Below are positions 1 through 31,633 of a stretch of 32,976 nucleotides of DNA, one piece after another. A program made the translations under genes and the position numbers. Location: the NCBI RefSeq assembly GCF_000337775.1, contig NZ_AOLQ01000061.1, forward strand, positions 1 through 32,976, given 5' to 3'. The stretch comes from Haloarcula vallismortis ATCC 29715. GTDB lineage: Archaea; Halobacteriota; Halobacteria; Halobacteriales; Haloarculaceae. The stretch's first letter is position 1, and each line of letters opens with the position of its first letter. The notes beneath the pieces were generated by a model, which had not been told where the DNA came from, did not search any database, and saw only the letters and a list, made by a program, of their open reading frames with translations.

Positions 1-2
1 TG

Positions 3-500
3 GGTGTGGGATTCACCCTCCTTACAGCGACATTCAGTCGGTTCATCTGGAAGACCGGAATCGCCCGCGCAACAGGAGCGTCAAAAGTTCCTGATTTCAA
101 CGGCGAGTGGACGGGATACGTCAAAACCTCGTATGAAGGAGTCATTCCGGATGATGCGCTCCACGCGTCGAACGACCCGAATGCGGAAATGCAGCGGGTC
201 GCTGCGACACTGCAAATCACCCAGACATGGCGAAAAATCAGCATCCACCTGGAGACCGATAATTCCGAGTCAGACAGTACTGGCGCAACCGTGCTGACTG
301 AAGATGGGCGTTGGCCGAGCCTTAACTACCAGTATGAGAACGACCCAGACCCAGATTCAGCCTCTTCGATGACAAGACACTACGGAACCGCTGACTTAGC
401 TTTAAAAACAGACTCTGACGAAACAGTACTTGAGGGGTTCTATTATACAGGCCCTGGCCGTGAGAACTATGGAGAAATGTACTTCGTGAAATCGGAGTGA
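3..500 (+). CDS. Cap15-type CBASS effector, second copy, 5' partial
   Basis: The frame is open to the left edge, so the N-terminus, including most of the membrane part, lies outside the window. The visible part aligns by eye along its whole length with the product of 505-1122: a hydrophobic stretch ending in FSRFIW, then PDFNGEWTGYV, IPDDAL, QITQTWRKISI, WPSLNYQY, HYGTADL and LEGFYY. The neighbour has NLNGSWEGYL, IPDEQI, EINQTWDKIRV, WPTLSYNYW, HYGTAIL and LEGKYYN. This is the beta-barrel nucleotide-sensing domain of Cap15 effectors, which sit in the inner membrane and disrupt it on cyclic-dinucleotide binding (family knowledge). A GTG at 6-8 could be a start but would cut off the expected transmembrane helices, so I treat the gene as partial. 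It converges on the other Cap15 gene. Its own CD-NTase, if any, would be left of the window. Confidence 0.75.
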   Translation, partial: GVGFTLLTATFSRFIWKTGIARATGASKVPDFNGEWTGYVKTSYEGVIPDDALHASNDPNAEMQRVAATLQITQTWRKISIHLETDNSESDSTGATVLTEDGRWPSLNYQYENDPDPDSASSMTRHYGTADLALKTDSDETVLEGFYYTGPGRENYGEMYFVKSE

Positions 501-504
501 CTGC

Positions 505-1122
505 TCAGTTCACTCTATATACTTCCAGTATTCCATGGGTTCCTCGCTGATCCGGTCGGTTGTAGTACTTGCCTTCAAGTTTGTCTTGGCCCTCATCGTA
601 TTCCAAGATAGCAGTCCCATAATGTGGATCTAGCTCCTCGTTGGTGGTACTCCCATCATTCCAGTAGTTATACGAGAGTGTCGGCCATGCCTTTTCTTTA
701 ACTAGAATCGTCGCTGCTCGGCTATGTGAGGGCGACTCTGGTCCATCTAAAGATACACGTATCTTATCCCACGTCTGATTAATCTCAATACTGGTTTCTT
801 GTTTTGTCAGCCCCTCAATCTGACGTCCCTCGTCAACAATTTGTTCGTCGGGAATGAGATCCGCGTCGGCGGACGTGTACAGATACCCCTCCCATGAACC
901 ATTCAAGTTTGGAACAGCGACCAGTCCCTTATCGTGTAACCACTCCCATTCCCACAGGTACCTTGTGAATCCGATGTATAGTAATGACGAGACAACACCC
1001 AACGAGAACCCGACTATAGGACCAAAAACACTGATTCCGCCCAGATAGATTACAGCAGTAAGGATACCAATTAGAATATACCGCTGATGCCGATTCGCTT
1101 GGTCAGTGGAAAAGTTGTGCAT
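505..1122 (-). CDS. cap15: Cap15-type CBASS membrane effector
   Basis: The product is 205 residues with two hydrophobic helices at about residues 15-32 and 35-55, then a soluble beta-rich domain. That domain carries the hallmark NLNGSWEGYL near residue 73 and QTWDKIRV near 116. The order 2TM then beta-barrel matches the Cap15 (S-2TM-beta) effectors of type I CBASS. In that family the barrel binds the cyclic dinucleotide made by the CD-NTase, and the membrane helices then assemble and depolarise the cell. The ATG overlaps the end of the CD-NTase gene by 20 nt and has GAGGA three bases upstream (1126-1130), so the two are translationally coupled. No Cap2/Cap3 or Cap7/Cap8 accessory genes are next to it, consistent with a minimal type I system. 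Which nucleotide it senses cannot be read from the sequence. Confidence 0.85.
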   Translation of the reverse strand: MHNFSTDQANRHQRYILIGILTAVIYLGGISVFGPIVGFSLGVVSSLLYIGFTRYLWEWEWLHDKGLVAVPNLNGSWEGYLYTSADADLIPDEQIVDEGRQIEGLTKQETSIEINQTWDKIRVSLDGPESPSHSRAATILVKEKAWPTLSYNYWNDGSTTNEELDPHYGTAILEYDEGQDKLEGKYYNRPDQRGTHGILEVYRVN

Positions 1123-2044
1123 TTTTCCTCTTGTCGTACCAGTCTTCCCACATTTCTCGGAGGCGGTTTATGAGTTCTTCTGCCTCATCAGTATTCCATT
1201 GAGTGTTGCTATCTCCGAATAAAGGCTCCATCTCGGAAACCTGATCGAAGCTTGAGAAGTCCGCGTCTTCTAAATGGGTGAGAATTTCGTCGAATCGGTC
1301 TGATCGACTGGTTCGCTTTAGGATGTTCTCTGGTACGTTGTATATGAGACACTCGATTCCGTACGAGTGAGCATCAATCGTCCAAAGCGTATCGAAGTGG
1401 TTGTTGTAGTAATACCGTGCGTTCTTGAATATACGGACCGTCTCTTTGTAGTTTGAGTGCATATCCCGTCCGTTCTCACGATGGATCTTGGGAAAGTTGA
1501 TTATACGATTGCCGCCGTTTTGCGGCATAAAGTGCATTCCCTTGTCGATTTCTGCGTCGTCGTCACCGCCTTCGGGATATGTCCGGTAGACACGGTACTC
1601 ACCGCACGCGACCACATCAACGTCGACGTCAAGTAGTGATGTTTCGTCTTTGTCGATCTTGATTGCCTTATTACCGGGAGTGACAGCCGAACGACCAAAC
1701 TTGATCCTGAGTGCCTTCAGCACATCATCGTAGAAATCACGATGATCATAATCGGCATCATCATGGTCCTCATCGTATCGTTCCTCCTCCTCTTCACTGA
1801 GTTCCTCGAGATCAGAGCGCCATGCAGACGTGATTTTCGCGACGACGTCTACGTCGCTCGAACCTCGTGTGTGCGTTGTGTTTGCATATGAGCCCTGTAA
1901 ATAGACTTCGTAGTCTTCGTCCGCTTGTTCCAGAGGGGAGCGTTCGCTCATTAGAGCACGGCGAGTTTTATCCCGTGCATCAGCTGATCCCTTGTCAGCT
2001 CCGGTACCATGCCAGTCATTAAATTTGCTTTCAGGAATCGGCAT
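1103..2044 (-). CDS. cdnA: CD-NTase (cGAS/DncV-like nucleotidyltransferase) of CBASS
   Basis: The product is 313 residues. It carries the Pol-beta/SMODS nucleotidyltransferase signature GSYANTTHTRGSSDVDVV at residues 51-68, giving the GS motif and the DxD metal ligands D64 and D66. The third acidic strand is LLDVDVDVV at about 137-145. A downstream SYGIECLIYN segment (about 227-236) matches the OAS-like helical core. In CBASS such enzymes make cyclic di- or trinucleotides on phage infection and activate the effector encoded next to them, here Cap15. An unusual acidic insert (about 80-102, rich in E and D) may be salt adaptation. The gene starts at ATG 2044, with GAGGAA at 2053-2058 on the minus strand as a likely ribosome site. 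The symbol only marks the family; I cannot assign the clade or the nucleotide product. Confidence 0.88.
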   Translation of the reverse strand: MPIPESKFNDWHGTGADKGSADARDKTRRALMSERSPLEQADEDYEVYLQGSYANTTHTRGSSDVDVVAKITSAWRSDLEELSEEEEERYDEDHDDADYDHRDFYDDVLKALRIKFGRSAVTPGNKAIKIDKDETSLLDVDVDVVACGEYRVYRTYPEGGDDDAEIDKGMHFMPQNGGNRIINFPKIHRENGRDMHSNYKETVRIFKNARYYYNNHFDTLWTIDAHSYGIECLIYNVPENILKRTSRSDRFDEILTHLEDADFSSFDQVSEMEPLFGDSNTQWNTDEAEELINRLREMWEDWYDKRKNAQLFH

Positions 2045-9445: not shown

Positions 9446-12400
9446 CTACTCACTGGCATCACTTGCTTCCCCCTGGTCGCCGGCGTCGCACAGCTCGATT
9501 CCGACGTAACAGCGCCGCGTCTGGCCGTCCAGCCATTTCTTGTCGCGCTCGAACTCGACCCAGTCACGGAACGCTTGCGTGAACCGATTTTTCGGCTTCA
9601 CGTCGTAGCCCTCTGCTTCCGCGAACTGCTCGTAGGCGTCGTAGACGTCGGCGACTGCGACGACCCCATCGTCGGATTCGATGATGTGTTCGCGACCGAA
9701 CGCACCGATGCCGTACGGATCGTCCTCATTGTCCTCCTGAGCGACTGACTCCTCGTCAGTCCCCTGGGCCGGTTCTACGCCAGCCGGGTGAAGCTTCTCA
9801 GCATCGATTGCCTCTTTGAGCGTGGAGAGCTCCGTGGCCGTCTCCGATTCTGGCGCGTACAGCTGGAGGGCCGGCTCGTTGTCGTCGGTGAGGATACCGA
9901 TAGCGTACGAGCTCTCTGTGTAGTCTGGGACAGGGAGGTCAGTACGGGGCACGAACGGCCGCTTGACAGGCACCCAGTCCGCCTCAAATACCTCCCGTGA
10001 GTCGTAGGTCTCGGGAAGCTCACCAGGCCTGAAGACGGTATACGTCTCGCTCTCAGCATCGTAACTGTACGTCGCCGGGAACTGATCTTTCGACACGCTC
10101 TCGAAGGAGTCAACCCGAGCGTGCTGGTCGCCCGAGCCGTCCTCGAGGACGAGAGCACCGTCACGCTCGAACCAACGTGTATGGCGACTGCCGTCGCTCG
10201 CGGGACGGACGGCAGTCACGCCGTCCGCTGCTCTGGCTCCACCGTTGAATGTGACGTTGTAGTTCGTTGTATACAGCCGTGTCTCCCCCGACGAGAGGGA
10301 GTTCCGCGGCTCCTGAAGGATCTTCGCGAGCCGATTCGCGATATCGGTTGCAGGCTGGCCGTCGTGGTCTGCGACGACGAACAGCGGGACCCGGTCGTGT
10401 TCTTGGGCCTTCCGGAGGTTCGCGAGGACTTTCGCGGGCCGGACGTGGGTCGTGGTCTCGATCTCAATCTGGATCTCGGTGTCGAGGTCTGAATGCGTCG
10501 CGACGGCGTCAGGGCGAGCGTCTCCATTCTGGTCCAGCACTTCCACGGAGAACCCGGCTGTCACGAGGGCTCGTTCAACCGTTGCGAGGGCCGAGTCGTG
10601 CGCTTCTCCGCCCCCAGTCGGTGACGTTGAGGTATCTGCCTGCGCCGCCTGTTCGCCCTCGTCTGTGAGCCGACACTGGACTGCCGACGCCCCCTCTGGA
10701 AGGCCCACCTCGATCAGCGAGGATGCCTCCCGCACATCCGGGAGTGCTTCGTAGCCCTGCGCCTCGATGGTACTCTCGTCGATGCGGGAGAGGAGTTCCT
10801 CATCGACAGCCTCAACTGACACCCACCCGTTCGTCTTGCGAACCTCGTTGGACAGCTGGACGGTACGGATCGCCCGGGCCATCGCCACTTCGAGCGGCAG
10901 TTCGTCAGCGTTCTCTAAGGCGACGTCAGTCGCCGCGTCACGACTCTCGACAGTCGTCCCGCCGGCGACACCATACTCCTCACGAGTATGCTTGTGGACC
11001 GTCTCCAGCGCGTCTTGGAACCGTTCCTCTTCTCCGGGGGTCAGCGGCCGGTCGCTGTCGGGATGACCGGGCGGAATCGGGAGCGGTTCGATGCTGAACG
11101 GGTCCGGACCCGTTTCGCCGAATTGTGGGCTCGGGAGTTGCGCGATCCACTCGCCCCGCGGGAGTGAACTGATACGGTTCTTGAACTCGACCGGGTCCAT
11201 CGCCTCGTGTGAGAGTGCTTCGGCGATGTCGGCGTCGACGGCGATCTTCCCGACGAGGGGGCTGCCGATGTTGTTCAGGACGTTTAGGTAGACCTCGCGG
11301 TTCCCCGCTTCCTTCATCTGCTCGGGGAACTGCGTCACGAGTTCGATCGAGAGCCGGAACTCTCGTCCCTTTTCCAGCAGCGTTGTCAGCGTATCAGAGA
11401 CGACGACAGACGACGCCTCGTCGATGAGCAGATTCGCCACGTAGTCATCCGGCTTCCGGGCCAACTCGTCGCCGTCGCGACGCTTGACGGCGTCGTACAG
11501 CTGCGTGAGAATGACGCCAGTCATCACACGGGCGGCCTCGTCGCGAAGGTCGCCCAAGTCGAAGATCACCACCTTATCCTCGTCGAGGAGTTCGCGGAAG
11601 TCGAACTGCGACTGGGTGTTGTTGAAGATTCGCCGGAGATGGGCGTCTTGCGTGATGTAGTCCATCCGGTTGCTGATGCCGCTCACGACGTTCGAGAACG
11701 TCGCCGGATTCGAGCGCAGGTGTCGCTCCAGTTTCTCCGCGACCTGCGGGTCGCTGGCTCGCGGTGCATCCTCGGGTGTCGGCTCCGGCGGGCCGGCGGC
11801 GTGGAACTGGGTGACCGCGTGTTCGAGTTGATCGTGGGTGAAGTAGTTCGTATCCTGTCGGAAGTGCCCGTTTTCGAGACCGTACTCCTCGTCGTACATC
11901 GCCTTGATGAGGTACTTGATGAGCGTCGGCGAGGCGATGGCATCCTCGTACCGCTCCGGCCCCATCACGAGCTTAATGAGCTCCTCGTAGTGGTCGGCCT
12001 TGTCCTGAACCGCGTCGACGCGTCGGACGCCGTCCTCCAAGGCCGGCGTGATGTCGAAGAACGCGAAGCCGGGCAGGATATCGGGGACCGAGAAGTGGAG
12101 GACGTTCTCCTCGAGGTCGTCGGTACCGAAGCGCTTCGCGTGAGCCCGCATATAGTTCTCGGGGAAATTCCCGCCCTTGGAGTCGATGATGAACACCGGC
12201 CCGTTCGTCTGGTCGTACAGCGAGAGGGCGTCGTTTTCAAGCGCGACAGACTTGCCGGCGCCGCTCTTGGCGAACCGGCCGACATGGAACGGGAGCAGAT
12301 GTGGGGGAATCCGCATCGGCTCTCGTGTCGGCGTGCCGTCCTCGCCGAGACCACGGCCGATTGCCATACCTCGGTCCGTGAACGCCTCCATATGGTCTTG

Positions 12401-13822
12401 TGACGGGAGCGGGAGTGGCGTTCGACTCTCTGGTTCGGCATCGGAACCACGACCGCCTTCGGTTGTGAGGTCAGTCGCTGGCGGAACGACGACGAAGTTC
12501 GCTAACTCCGCCGGTCCGAGGACGAGATCAGGACGCGTCTTTCGCCAGTCGCTCTTTGCTGCGATCTCGGCGTTGAACACCCGGTCGGCGTGCTTCCTAG
12601 CTCGCCGTCCTTTCCGGAGTCCACGACGCGCCCGCTTGGGGCGAAGGCGATAGTGTGACCCGTTCAGGTGGTCGAACACCGACCCGATATCGTCGAGGCG
12701 GTGGTCGACGCGCTCCCGCTGCTGGTCCGTGGTTACCAGCGAAAGCGCTCGCATATTCACCGTAAACGTATGCTGTGGTTCTTTCTCGTCGATGGAATCG
12801 ACTCGCTCCCGACCACCGATGTCGAGGTATCGGCGCTGTCGACCGGTGTTCGAGGGGCTCTGTGGTTCATTCTCCGTGTTTCCGAGGAGTTCCCCGAAGA
12901 ACCAGTCGACAATCCGATCCTCGCCCTCGCGAAGTTTCCGCTGGCGCTCCCGAGCTTCGTGAGTCCAGTCAGGCTTCCGTTGGAAGAGTACCTGAAACGC
13001 GATTGGGTGTTCGGCCCGGGTTAGCTGATCGATGAGTGATGCGAGCGGCGCTCGTGCGTGGTCGTCGTCCTCATCTTCCGTGTTCGTGAACTGGGGTAGC
13101 GTCGTCATCCAGTCCTCGCGACGGGTAGCCCGCCCGTGCCAGGTGATTCCGAGCGGCGTCGTGTCGTCGATACTCAGCTGTGAATGCTCCGGCTGGTGGT
13201 CGACGTCGGGCCCAGAGTCGGACGAATCACTCGTCGTAGGTTCGTCACTCGATCCGGTTCCGAACAGTACTTCGGCGTCGTCCTGCGACGTGGTGCTATC
13301 TGAGACCACGCTTCCGCCGTCACCAACTGGCTCCTGGCTCGTCGTGTCCAGCGGCGTCGCGGGTTCCGAATCTGGCTGGGAGGTATCGCCGGTCTTCTCA
13401 GCCGTTCTGGTAGTCGTCTCGTGCCGGTTGTCGCCCCCGACACTACTGTCGTGAGCTTGCTTTGCTGGTGAGGGAAGCAGCTTCGTCTCTAGGTCGAGTG
13501 TCACCCGCTCAAACGTCACGGTCGGCGGATACAGCGTCCGAAGGCGCTCTTCGAGAGCATCGATCCGTCTATCCGCGCCGTAATAGAACTCGACCGGCTC
13601 GTCTTTCCCTTCGCTCACCGCGAGGAATTCGAATACTGGTGGTGGATTGCCGAAGGGACCGATACTGTCGAGAAGCCCGTCGTTGCCGGCGTCCAGCCCG
13701 TGGAGGCCAGCCAGTTGGCGGACGACGGTCTCCGGCGCGAGGTCACTCCGAGAGGGAGTGATCCGGATATACTCGACGCCGCGATCTGACCCCGTGGGGT
13801 CTGATGGGTGGTTCTCAGTCAT
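9446..13822 (-). CDS. VirD4/HerA-type conjugative DNA-translocation ATPase with C-terminal nuclease-like domain
   Basis: The 1458-residue product is probably the element's coupling protein. The ATPase core has Walker A GRFAKSGAGKS at about 515-525, FIIDSKGGN after it (a usual VirD4/TraG feature), Walker B NLLIDEAS at about 797-804 and a sensor strand LVTQFPEQ near 829. The first 250 residues include a low-complexity S/T/D linker. Past the ATPase lies a PD-(D/E)xK-like region (PDAVA near 1104, IQIEIET near 1117-1123, then a KVLANLRKAQ helix). The C-terminus (about 1373-1446) resembles the winged helix at the end of D5/P4-type primases. ATG 13822 was chosen because it overlaps the VirB4 stop by 8 nt (ATGACTGA); the frame extends to 14050 only as antisense-like sequence. 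It should pump DNA into the T4SS channel. Confidence 0.75.
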   Translation of the reverse strand: MTENHPSDPTGSDRGVEYIRITPSRSDLAPETVVRQLAGLHGLDAGNDGLLDSIGPFGNPPPVFEFLAVSEGKDEPVEFYYGADRRIDALEERLRTLYPPTVTFERVTLDLETKLLPSPAKQAHDSSVGGDNRHETTTRTAEKTGDTSQPDSEPATPLDTTSQEPVGDGGSVVSDSTTSQDDAEVLFGTGSSDEPTTSDSSDSGPDVDHQPEHSQLSIDDTTPLGITWHGRATRREDWMTTLPQFTNTEDEDDDHARAPLASLIDQLTRAEHPIAFQVLFQRKPDWTHEARERQRKLREGEDRIVDWFFGELLGNTENEPQSPSNTGRQRRYLDIGGRERVDSIDEKEPQHTFTVNMRALSLVTTDQQRERVDHRLDDIGSVFDHLNGSHYRLRPKRARRGLRKGRRARKHADRVFNAEIAAKSDWRKTRPDLVLGPAELANFVVVPPATDLTTEGGRGSDAEPESRTPLPLPSQDHMEAFTDRGMAIGRGLGEDGTPTREPMRIPPHLLPFHVGRFAKSGAGKSVALENDALSLYDQTNGPVFIIDSKGGNFPENYMRAHAKRFGTDDLEENVLHFSVPDILPGFAFFDITPALEDGVRRVDAVQDKADHYEELIKLVMGPERYEDAIASPTLIKYLIKAMYDEEYGLENGHFRQDTNYFTHDQLEHAVTQFHAAGPPEPTPEDAPRASDPQVAEKLERHLRSNPATFSNVVSGISNRMDYITQDAHLRRIFNNTQSQFDFRELLDEDKVVIFDLGDLRDEAARVMTGVILTQLYDAVKRRDGDELARKPDDYVANLLIDEASSVVVSDTLTTLLEKGREFRLSIELVTQFPEQMKEAGNREVYLNVLNNIGSPLVGKIAVDADIAEALSHEAMDPVEFKNRISSLPRGEWIAQLPSPQFGETGPDPFSIEPLPIPPGHPDSDRPLTPGEEERFQDALETVHKHTREEYGVAGGTTVESRDAATDVALENADELPLEVAMARAIRTVQLSNEVRKTNGWVSVEAVDEELLSRIDESTIEAQGYEALPDVREASSLIEVGLPEGASAVQCRLTDEGEQAAQADTSTSPTGGGEAHDSALATVERALVTAGFSVEVLDQNGDARPDAVATHSDLDTEIQIEIETTTHVRPAKVLANLRKAQEHDRVPLFVVADHDGQPATDIANRLAKILQEPRNSLSSGETRLYTTNYNVTFNGGARAADGVTAVRPASDGSRHTRWFERDGALVLEDGSGDQHARVDSFESVSKDQFPATYSYDAESETYTVFRPGELPETYDSREVFEADWVPVKRPFVPRTDLPVPDYTESSYAIGILTDDNEPALQLYAPESETATELSTLKEAIDAEKLHPAGVEPAQGTDEESVAQEDNEDDPYGIGAFGREHIIESDDGVVAVADVYDAYEQFAEAEGYDVKPKNRFTQAFRDWVEFERDKKWLDGQTRRCYVGIELCDAGDQGEASDASE

Positions 13823-15908
13823 CCTCCTGTTGAGCAGTGCTGGTTGGGCCCCCACCGTCGGCACGAGCGCCGGCCTGCCGGCTGTCGGGGCTCGCCACAC
13901 TGGCGCTGGATCCGGTCTCGAGTTCGGCCACGTCCGCCGCACCGCCGTCGATGACATGGGCCTCGTAATCACTTGCCCGAATCCGGAGCGGGAACCATCC
14001 CTCCTGGTCGATTCCCACGAGCGCTTCTGAGTACCCGTCTTCGTCCTCACCGGCTTTCGCGGAGGTAACCCAGTTTACCTGCCGTTCGCTGAGGTCAAAC
14101 CACTTGGCGATCTTCTCTTTCTCCTCGTTGACGCGGTGAAGGACGGTCAGCGAACAGAGGTTTGCGATGGTTCTCGCCTCCGGCGTCAGCGCGAACTCAC
14201 CCCCCGTTTGCGTGATGAATTCGAGGCTCAGGTCGAAGTGGCGACTGTGTCGGACGGCCGTCTCCAAGAAGTCCAGCGAGACGGCATCGTTCATCAGGTA
14301 GTGCGCCTCGTCGATACAGAAGACGACGCGCTTGTCGGTCTGCTTGACCCGCTCGTAGACGCTGTTGAACAGCACCTGCATCATAAGGCTGGTCTCCGCC
14401 CGCCCACGGGTGCCTTCTTCCTGATGGAGATCGAGGTAGATGACCTTCGAATCAAGGTCGAATTCGGAGGGTCGAGCCAGATTCTCGAGTTCACCGCCTT
14501 CGCGGAACGACGGTCGGAGGTCCTTGAGCAGCGACTGCGCATCGGACTGGACGGCTTCCTGCTCGCCATCAGTGACGTAGCCGTACTCCTCTGGATCCTC
14601 GACCATCTCCTCGAGGACTTCAATGACGTCGTGGATTGTCGGTGAATCCCGGGTGTGTGTCTCTGGATCCCTGGTGATGCCGCGCTTCTCGTAGGCTTCC
14701 TGGACGGCCCGCCGGAGCGTCTGGTTACGCTCACCGAGCGGGTGGTCCGCGACGTGCTCGAAGAACGTCGCGAAGAAGGTCATCACCCAGTTGATCTGCT
14801 CGCCCCACGGGTCGATGTCGTCGACCTCCTGTAGGACGTGGTCGGGTGTCGGCTTGATCTCCAGTGGGTTCAATCCACGCCGACCACCGACCGTGACGCG
14901 CTCGCCATCGAGCGCCTCGTTGACGCCGGCGAACCCTCGCATCGGGTCGAGCATAATGATGACCGTATCCTCGTCGAACATCGCCCGCCGCACCAGCCGG
15001 AGCTTCGTTGCGAAGGACTTGCCCGCACCGAGGCGGCCGATAACCATCATACAGTAGCCGGTTTGTCGCTTGAACCGGTCGAGGATGAGCGGGCTCGAAT
15101 TCAGCGCGTACGTCCCGTACTCGATGCCGGGTTCAGCAAACGCACCGGAAACGAAGGGGAACATCGCGCCGACAGCACCGCCAAGCATCGGCGTCTTGCT
15201 GTCGAGCGTCTCGTTGAATTGATCGAGGGCGATTGGACTGGCTGAGGTGAACGTCTTCAGCTGGGACCACCGCGGCGTCACCGGCGTCAGATTCGCGGGG
15301 GCCTGCCGGGCAGTCGTTGACACCGACTCAGTGTCGACGTTATCGCGCTCGTCGCCTCTGACCGTGAGGTACGTCGAGACGTCGAACGCCTGCATCGTCG
15401 TGTTCCTGAGGACGTCGTACATCTCCTGGTGGTCCTCTAGGTCTTTCTCGACGCCGCGGGCGCTCGCACGATGCTTCTCGGTCAGGTATTCGTAATCGGC
15501 TTCAAGATCCTCGATCTTGTTCTCCAGCGAATCCAGCGTCTCCCGCGTGTCGCGGGGGTCGATATGGATGCTGATGTCCGTTTGTTGGGTCTCGGCGGCG
15601 GCGTACAGCTTCTCAAGGAAGCCGTCCATCGGTGCATCCGGATACTCTCCGACCCACAGGCTCTGCGCCCACTGATTGTCCGTCCGGAGAGCACTCGGCG
15701 TCCGTTCGATGCTGGATGGTGAGACGACGGTCTGGTGGATTTCGGGAATACCGTCGACTGCCTCACCGTCCCGCTCGTAGGTGACAGTAAGCTGCGACTC
15801 GTCACCGTCTGCGTCCTGCTCGTCAGGCGTCTCATCTTCAGATGTCTCATCGTCGTCGTTGGCTTCCGAACTGTTCGAGCCGGTGAAGGGGAGCAGGTTA
15901 CGAATCAT
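13815..15908 (-). CDS. virB4: VirB4-type T4SS ATPase
   Basis: The product is 697 residues. Walker A GRLGAGKS is at 291-298, followed by a conserved LDPMRGF strand near 320. Walker B VVFCIDEAH is at 528-536, and FITQTGGEF follows. These spacings and motifs fit the VirB4/TrbE/CagE family that powers pilus assembly and substrate transfer at the inner face of the membrane. Residues 17-40 are an acidic linker and about 121-160 are coiled coil. The usual N-terminal domain of VirB4 is short here and seems to be supplied by the preceding gene. The ATG overlaps the previous stop by 4 nt (ATGA). Confidence 0.85.
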   Translation of the reverse strand: MIRNLLPFTGSNSSEANDDDETSEDETPDEQDADGDESQLTVTYERDGEAVDGIPEIHQTVVSPSSIERTPSALRTDNQWAQSLWVGEYPDAPMDGFLEKLYAAAETQQTDISIHIDPRDTRETLDSLENKIEDLEADYEYLTEKHRASARGVEKDLEDHQEMYDVLRNTTMQAFDVSTYLTVRGDERDNVDTESVSTTARQAPANLTPVTPRWSQLKTFTSASPIALDQFNETLDSKTPMLGGAVGAMFPFVSGAFAEPGIEYGTYALNSSPLILDRFKRQTGYCMMVIGRLGAGKSFATKLRLVRRAMFDEDTVIIMLDPMRGFAGVNEALDGERVTVGGRRGLNPLEIKPTPDHVLQEVDDIDPWGEQINWVMTFFATFFEHVADHPLGERNQTLRRAVQEAYEKRGITRDPETHTRDSPTIHDVIEVLEEMVEDPEEYGYVTDGEQEAVQSDAQSLLKDLRPSFREGGELENLARPSEFDLDSKVIYLDLHQEEGTRGRAETSLMMQVLFNSVYERVKQTDKRVVFCIDEAHYLMNDAVSLDFLETAVRHSRHFDLSLEFITQTGGEFALTPEARTIANLCSLTVLHRVNEEKEKIAKWFDLSERQVNWVTSAKAGEDEDGYSEALVGIDQEGWFPLRIRASDYEAHVIDGGAADVAELETGSSASVASPDSRQAGARADGGGPTSTAQQEDD

Positions 15909-30367: not shown

Positions 30368-31633
30368 TCACTCGTCAGTAGATAGCTCAGCTTGCGAATC
30401 AATCTCGTTGAGTGCCTCTGTAGCGACATCACCTAATTCACCCGCCTCGATATGCGAATACCGCTCACGAACCATCTCTTCGGAGTTGTCGAGATACCGA
30501 GCTGCGACCGTGTACCCGAAGGCTCTGACGAGGACCTCTCCCATCCCGCGACGGCCACCGTGTGGAGCAAGATAATCGTGCTTCGGATGGTCGATGTCCA
30601 CCTCCGCCTCCTGGGAGAGGCGCTGAAGGATCGACCGCGCGCCGTCTGTCGTAATCGACGGCGGTTGGATATCTTCATCCAGCGCCAACAAGAGGTCTCG
30701 AGTGTACTCCTCACGGCGCTCAGCAATTGCTTCCGGTCGCTCCCCTCGTTCGGCGAGCTCCTCCTGCACGAGCTCTGCGAGCGTCCGTTGGTCGAACGTC
30801 GGAAACACGGGCCACCGCTCCGTCGGTGGTTCCATCAGCTTCCGGTAGCTCCGCAGTGGCGAGATCACCGGATCAGGGAGACTGGCGGCATCCCACTGCT
30901 GTTTCTTCCGGTAGACGTCCATACTCCCGTCCTCGAGGGAGAGATCCTCCCAGCGGACACCGCGCCGACGCGGATCGTTTGGGTCTCGTAGGAGTTCCCC
31001 AACGCGGACAGCTGTATAGGCGAGGACGAACACCAAAGCTCGGTCACGAGCCGCCTTTAGTGCCGCGTAGCGCGCTCGCTGTTTGTCGAGGGGGTCAGTA
31101 TCCTCCGGGAGTGTCGTGTACGCCTCGACGGCGTCGCGGGCCCGTTCGTCGACGTGGCGGGTGAGCGTGTGACGCTGTTCAGACGTCCACGCCTGCTGGT
31201 CGCCAGGCTTGCGACCGTCGTCCTCCGGCAGCGGCGCCATCGCACTCGCCCGCTGCGCATAGTGTGCCTCGAGGTAGCCCTCGTTGACGCACCAACCACA
31301 CCACGCAGAGATATAGCGGTAGTAGGTTTGGACAGTATTCTGCTTGAGCCTCCGGTCGCCGGCGAGATGTCGAGCGTACTCACGGAAGACACGTTCATCG
31401 AGGTCCTCGAAGGTGGGCTCTCTGTCGACGTCGTCGGGGACGATCCCGGTCCAGTCGTCGCGACCGCGGTCGCCAGCGGCCCACTCGGCGAATCGCTCAA
31501 GCTCGCGGGCTGCATTTCGTCGGTAGTTCCCGCCGTCACCACCGCGGCCTTTCCCCTTGTCCTGGAGGTACCGCTCGAACGAACTTGCGAGCGACCGCCC
31601 GGTACGTTCTCCAGACGTCTTCTCGGAGGTCAT
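30368..31633 (-). CDS. Tyrosine recombinase / integrase
   Basis: The product is 421 residues. An N-terminal SAM-like core-binding domain runs to about residue 115. The catalytic domain has R210 in AYTAVRVGELL, a lysine near 243-244 (YRKKQQW), H358 and R361 in APHGGRRG and the nucleophile Y392 in RERYSHIE. The order and spacing fit a site-specific recombinase that inserts or excises the element at an attachment site. No obvious att duplication or tRNA lies within the window, so the other end must be outside. The start overlaps the stop of the TumE-like gene by 4 nt (ATGA), so they are co-translated. Confidence 0.85.
   Translation of the reverse strand: MTSEKTSGERTGRSLASSFERYLQDKGKGRGGDGGNYRRNAARELERFAEWAAGDRGRDDWTGIVPDDVDREPTFEDLDERVFREYARHLAGDRRLKQNTVQTYYRYISAWCGWCVNEGYLEAHYAQRASAMAPLPEDDGRKPGDQQAWTSEQRHTLTRHVDERARDAVEAYTTLPEDTDPLDKQRARYAALKAARDRALVFVLAYTAVRVGELLRDPNDPRRRGVRWEDLSLEDGSMDVYRKKQQWDAASLPDPVISPLRSYRKLMEPPTERWPVFPTFDQRTLAELVQEELAERGERPEAIAERREEYTRDLLLALDEDIQPPSITTDGARSILQRLSQEAEVDIDHPKHDYLAPHGGRRGMGEVLVRAFGYTVAARYLDNSEEMVRERYSHIEAGELGDVATEALNEIDSQAELSTDE

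Follow-up and report, generated by a model that had tools for sequence, protein, structure and literature searches.

A probable compound CBASS of two tail-to-tail CdnE-Cap15 pairs in haloarchaea

The left end of a contig from Haloarcula vallismortis ATCC 29715 raises the question of whether one CD-NTase serves two Cap15-type effectors or whether two CBASS systems meet there. The window, i.e. the whole stretch of DNA analysed, comprises 32,976 bp and is an entire contig (G000:C61) of a genome present in 69 contigs. As described before, two Cap15-type genes are located tail-to-tail at positions 3-500 on the plus strand (CapB) and 505-1122 on the minus strand (CapA), and their stop codons (498-500 and 505-507) enclose a spacer of 4 nt (501-504). 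The CapB reading frame is cut by the left edge of the window and is incomplete within it, which made the content to the left of the window the key question.

Two CdnE-Cap15 pairs across a probable contig junction

For the minus strand, the preliminary description had recognized a pair of CD-NTase and Cap15 genes, and PADLOC returned matches for both. The CdnE-type cyclase, CdnA (1103-2044, minus strand), was matched by PDLC00788 (2.6e-99), and its end is overlapped by the start of CapA by 20 nt. CapA is a complete effector with two helices and a barrel (Pfam PF18153, 9.8e-22; PADLOC '2TM' effector, 1e-121), and its AlphaFold model (helices plus barrel; pLDDT 81.9) resembles 7n34 with a TM-score by target of 0.86. 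The window contains the C-terminal part of CapB, 165 codons in length (Pfam Cap15_CD_rec PF18153, 1.1e-31; PADLOC CBASS '2TM' effector, 9.6e-54). As this is only part of the gene, CapB was modelled via its Haloglomus orthologue, which likewise consists of helices and a barrel (pLDDT 83.2; TM-score by target 0.81 against 7n34), in agreement with the earlier assignment of the plus-strand gene as a Cap15 barrel. The first PDB matches of both models were the Yersinia Cap15 structures 7n34/7n35. By Pfam, PADLOC, models and PDB matches, both halves encode the two membrane helices and the Cap15 barrel of a CBASS effector. The patterns NGxWxGY, QTWxKI, HYGTA and LEGxYY are present in both facing genes. 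The two proteins are related yet divergent, as had been proposed: CapA and CapB share 35% identity over 152 residues, indicating diverged relatives and not a recent duplication, and A differs from B at 32 effector positions that are fixed within each group.

A search of the same genome with the window's CD-NTase as query yielded a second CD-NTase at C60:18600-19484. The last genes of contig C60 (19,656 bp) are an intact CdnE-type CD-NTase of 298 aa, CdnB (C60:18594-19490), and a truncated Cap15. The latter starts at C60:19496, 5 nt past the end of CdnB, and runs off the contig end with codons 1-53, in the reading frame of the window's first codons. C60 would thereby carry the first ~50 codons of CapB, the part that holds the membrane helices in relatives. 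An unbroken CapB is present in 5/5 relatives (L092, L093, L094, L038 and L039), and in each of them the two contig ends align to it with an 11-nt overlap. At the junction (window 1-12, plus strand), positions 2-12 overlap the end of C60, which carries the rest of the operon; the last base of C60 and the first base of C61 do not fit the relatives' alignment. From this homology, and not from reads, we infer that C60 and C61 are adjacent and that the locus is arranged as CdnB-CapB> <CapA-CdnA. The leftward look suggested earlier has ended at an intact second CD-NTase, the very finding that had been named as refuting. The reading favoured in the preliminary description, one CD-NTase serving two effectors, had in its support the single cyclase visible within the window. 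Unless the C60-C61 join is wrong, it is rejected for this locus, as C60 carries a full CdnB directly to the left and CapB has CdnB as its neighbour in the five relatives in which the locus is unbroken.

The catalytic residues G-S, D-D and third D (GS...DxD...D) occur in all 55 aligned cyclases, CdnA and CdnB included, and both halves possess the CD-NTase active site of type I CBASS. CdnE structures matched both cyclases, the best being 6e0k (RmCdnE). According to published residue rules, a lid-1 Asn goes with a uracil acceptor, and an (R/Q)xW lid 3 together with the lid-1 Asn marks CdnE enzymes that make cyclic di-pyrimidines (PMC10442399). Lid-1 Asn and lid-2 His are kept in CdnA and CdnB, and lid 3 reads TxW, not (R/Q)xW, in all 11 CdnA and 8 CdnB rows. 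CdnA and CdnB were rejected as makers of cyclic di-UMP or other di-pyrimidines, as the lid-3 rule failed despite the lid-1 Asn; with TxW in place of (R/Q)xW, a purine donor is expected for both. By the published lid rules, both cyclases are predicted to make a uracil-purine signal. The idea that the effectors are tuned to different nucleotides finds no support in these lid residues, which are the same in CdnA and CdnB, although other positions near the donor site differ: the position aligned with RmCdnE Cys252, near that site, is Gln in A and Val in B. It is one of 37 cyclase positions at which A and B are each fixed for a different residue, and CdnA and CdnB may differ in products or triggers. 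A match of CdnA to NCBIfam NF053871 (DS2_2 antiphage nucleotidyltransferase) was discarded at 211 bits, under the curated cut-off of 350.

Recurrence and maintenance of the four-gene unit

Relatives were collected by several searches, and the loci were annotated with profiles built for this analysis. Among 145 related genomes, a Cap15 match was obtained in nine and a cyclase match in nine, with the window's own genome counted in both. A class-wide Cap15 profile search of 391 genomes matched 31, two of which (G055 and G068) were weak and were dropped, and an order-wide CdnB search of 392 genomes matched 27. Further loci came from named genomes (25 loci) and from plasmids (67 records, the best 40 of 67 inspected). 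The arrangement CdnB-CapB> <CapA-CdnA occurs in six haloarchaeal genomes, all with the 4-nt spacer between the effector stop codons: the window's genome (C60 and C61), G366 (L092), G218 (L093), Salinigranum rubrum (plasmid NZ_CP026311.1; L094/L154), Haloglomus halophilum (plasmid NZ_CP101167.1; L038/L155) and Halapricum sp. CBA1109 (L039). The alternative view that two ordinary CBASS loci converge here was right as to the two systems; "ordinary" does not suit the same four genes and spacer recurring in six genomes. The module spans at least two families (f1 and f4 in the class-wide search). No match was obtained in other genomes of the window's genus in the 145-genome Cap15 search, and this absence fits a horizontal gain of the module. 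A CdnA fragment very close to that of the window is located near a contig end in G202 (L150:5546-6013), adjoined by a Haloglomus-type integrase (85%), and is perhaps a seventh copy.

The comparison of the flanks covered 5.7 kb of C60 and 4 kb of C61. In L094 and L038, homology comprises the four genes together with the ~45 nt preceding CdnB and the ~225 nt preceding CdnA, and nothing more in the stretch compared. L039 additionally has three genes upstream of CdnB in common with the window's locus, and L092 and L093 share nearly all of the compared stretch. The conserved region upstream of CdnA (2045-2267) looks coding in the window and ends just before the CdnA start; a fifth small gene was nonetheless rejected, as this relic reading frame is broken by a stop in L038 and by frameshifts in L039. 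L154 and L155 each have an integrase within ~0.5 kb of CdnA, and L039 has one that is split into two pieces and shows 33% identity. A single integrase moving the module was dismissed, since those in L154 and L155 are of different kinds and the corresponding position in the window, L092 and L093 yielded none.

Mean dN/dS values were 0.054 for CdnB, 0.048 for CapB, 0.080 for CapA and 0.064 for CdnA at pairwise dS of 0.04 to 0.82, indicating that all four proteins are maintained by purifying selection. When the two module subgroups are compared, silent sites have diverged ~1.5-2 times as far in the A half as in the B half, and the divergence of CdnA of L094 does not match that of the genes next to it. 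This speaks against simple co-inheritance and indicates that the halves recombined separately at times.

A gene encoding a QueC protein is located 63 nt upstream of CdnB on the same strand; the protein is QatC-like and gave a QatC match only (PADLOC, 1.9e-38). Two small genes precede it, neither with a Pfam or PADLOC match. The first of them starts MGT, and QatB proteins start MGTS (PMC13279940). This trio (L037:2261-4531; C60:16260-18530) is found beside four of the six modules, those of the window, L092, L093 and L039, and may constitute a reduced Qat-like system associated with this CBASS. L094 and L038 have a UvrD-like helicase and a PD-(D/E)XK nuclease in its place. Elsewhere in the window, the match of an ORF at 9446-14050 was weak and of the type IV secretion coupling/HerA-like kind, and the gene at 30368-31633 is integrase-like, with 87% identity to one beside the cyclases of Halomarina sp. 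BND7; C61 is possibly part of a conjugative or integrative element, or such an element itself.

Our preferred explanation, which we consider very probable, is a compound CBASS in which two complete two-gene systems, placed tail-to-tail, form a single four-gene unit of defence that is maintained and moves as a whole. It draws directly on two catalytically intact cyclase sequences, two effectors, the conserved arrangement, purifying selection and spread between families. In such a unit, virus infection would switch on each cyclase, which would make a small cyclic nucleotide, predicted to hold uracil and a purine, that binds the barrel of the matching Cap15. Assembly of the Cap15 membrane helices would in turn breach the membrane, so that the cell is sacrificed and the virus is stopped; this killing mechanism is taken from published work (PMC10686824, PMC12657230). 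Two sensors and two receptors could widen recognition and provide backup if a virus evades or soaks up one signal.

Two-cyclase relatives and the tie between the halves

Trees were calculated from 56 effectors and 55 cyclases, after removal of eight duplicate loci, five short effector rows and one short cyclase row; loci L147-L162 were not part of either tree. The A and B genes fall into separate, well-supported groups in both trees, and the two halves differ in lineage for CdnE cyclase and Cap15 effector alike. Eight loci make up the CdnB/CapB group, the six modules among them, and CdnA adjoins in all eight. The other two are tandem: G073 and G312 carry an operon CdnA-CdnB-CapB whose two cyclase genes overlap by 4 nt (ATGA), i.e. 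two cyclases and one effector. Genome searches of G073 and G312 for a second Cap15 found none, and the next gene upstream, a candidate for a second effector of CdnA, is a type IIG restriction enzyme gene in both. Halomarina sp. BND7 has another row of two cyclases and one effector, made of different genes. Head-to-head pairs of other lineages occur in seven genomes (L032, L033, L034, L095, L096, L097 and Natronomonas marina L151).

Two cyclases were present in 16 of 37 distinct haloarchaeal loci (6 convergent, 3 tandem and 7 divergent); the 37 are those with both Cap15 and cyclase and were found with these genes as queries, not as a random sample. They exclude the effector fragments L036/L057 and L115, the lone effector L113, L114 with a cyclase but no Cap15, and the cyclase fragment L150. 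Among the 21 single-cyclase loci are L112 with a broken effector, L106 with its cyclase located at a contig edge, and L153, where an insertion sequence separates the genes (on the Haloarcula sinaiiensis plasmid pHsi55, an ISH6 transposase gene at L153:4510-5850 lies between cyclase and Cap15). The small control set comprised 15 non-haloarchaeal loci in which the same profile had found a cyclase, drawn from the named-genome loci, from six plasmid loci selected among the 67 records and from one viral contig; the viral contigs yielded one distant locus. The same profile detected a second cyclase in 0/15 of these (Fisher p = 0.002 against haloarchaea), a comparison of loci that are not independent and differ in flank length, with the haloarchaeal ones screened for this cyclase clade only. 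In the near-identical Bradyrhizobium loci L158 and L159, the pair directly adjoins an annotated type II CBASS that has a DncV-like CD-NTase of its own, and counting them changes the result to 2/15 (p = 0.055). The contrast with bacteria is therefore weak, and a haloarchaeal preference for two cyclases is not established as a speciality. On these two Bradyrhizobium plasmids, a second weak Cap15-like match (6.6e-6) was also seen near Cap15 and the distant CD-NTase. Within the class, two Cap15 genes were found in 8 of 391 genomes, with the pair adjacent in all eight, and about one such genome would be expected under independent placement, given 29/391 positive.

These distributions bear on the strongest rival, in which two independent CBASS are chance neighbours in a defence island, co-transferred by linkage and without functional tie. 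Defence genes cluster, and the QatC-like cluster, the UvrD-like helicase with the PD-(D/E)XK nuclease and the type IIG restriction genes all adjoin loci of this set; linkage in a defence-rich plasmid region could hold neighbours together without cooperation. CdnA-CapA also occurs without CdnB (L029, L100, L102 and L149), indicating that the A half does not need it, and the unequal silent divergence of the halves points the same way. Several of the head-to-head loci are near-identical across families, so the paired loci represent few independent events, partly as recent copies. On the other hand, CdnB-CapB is accompanied by CdnA in 8/8 of the sample and across two layouts, the tandem operons retain CdnA without CapA, and pairing is seen again in other lineages. 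We rate mere linkage at somewhat below an even chance. Cooperation between the halves of the compound unit would go beyond this: the tandem operon retains CdnA with CapB as its sole Cap15, which makes it plausible that the halves share signal or effector to some extent.

A more specific form of cooperation, which we put forward tentatively and regard as rather doubtful, is a dual-cyclase CBASS. The tandem CdnA-CdnB-CapB would feed one Cap15 via two sensors or a mixed cyclase complex, and the tail-to-tail form would add a second effector with cross-reading, or one half would guard the other against viral signal sponges.

Comparison with known CBASS and Panoptes systems

Guarding is known from Panoptes (optSE), which often lies near CBASS and couples a Cap15 relative to inhibitory signalling (PMC12657218, PMC12657230). 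By analogy, one half could be activating while the cyclase of the other constantly makes a decoy nucleotide that holds a Cap15-like effector off, so that viral sponges trigger this effector. Panoptes beside CBASS likewise amounts to two synthase and Cap15-like pairs per locus, and two Cap15 pairs of different lineages are kept together here. However, the Panoptes synthase is an mCpol, whereas both synthases here are CdnE-kind CD-NTases, and the sequence gives no sign of inhibitory signalling; we consider this guard arrangement improbable.

Type IV CBASS (PMC11996544, PMC13279940) shares with four of the six modules a QueC-family gene, here 63 nt from CdnB. It consists of a CD-NTase with an N-terminal glycine tail, Cap9 (QueC) and Cap10 (TGT-like). 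We rejected type IV for the module because CdnA starts MP, CdnB starts MI and the QueC protein is QatC-like; no match to a TGT-like gene was obtained in the sequence covered on either side of the six modules. In Halomarina rubra, Halomarina sp. BND7 and Haloarcula sinaiiensis (L030, L152 and L153), CD-NTases whose long N-terminal tail starts MG were observed beside a TGT-like gene and Cap15; these loci look like type IV CBASS with a Cap15 effector.

In archaea, Haloferax 48N has two CBASS systems that are downregulated in chronic infection (PMC12714723), and a survey of 7,747 archaeal genomes treated CBASS by cyclase tree (PMC12988326); paired cyclases are not described in the available parts of these two papers. 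Literature on two-cyclase Cap15 units was not found by title or abstract, in a coverage that largely leaves aside subscription papers.

The closest known system is type I CBASS with CdnE and Cap15, which has the same two genes, order, cyclase family and effector fold as each half of the module. RmCdnE, a cyclic UMP-AMP maker (PMC10442399), is the best solved relative of both cyclase sets and has lid-1 Asn and lid-2 His in common with them, with ExW in lid 3 where CdnA and CdnB have TxW. Single two-gene CdnE-Cap15 operons are represented by S. schleiferi CdnE03-Cap15 (PMC10686824) and by those of EfCdnE, ClCdnE and LpCdnE (PMC10442399). Two-cyclase relatives in several layouts suggest a possible selective advantage in the combination of sensors or signals, and these small sets (four genes, or three in the tandem form) are suited for testing cross-talk, backup and guarding against viral counter-defence in archaea. 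While the Cap15 CBASS operons described in the cited papers, as far as available, contain one cyclase and one effector, the locus here unites two diverged pairs in one mobile unit, and its relatives include operons with two cyclases and one effector. In the corrected picture, this double CBASS is transferable and has two-cyclase relatives with other gene arrangements.
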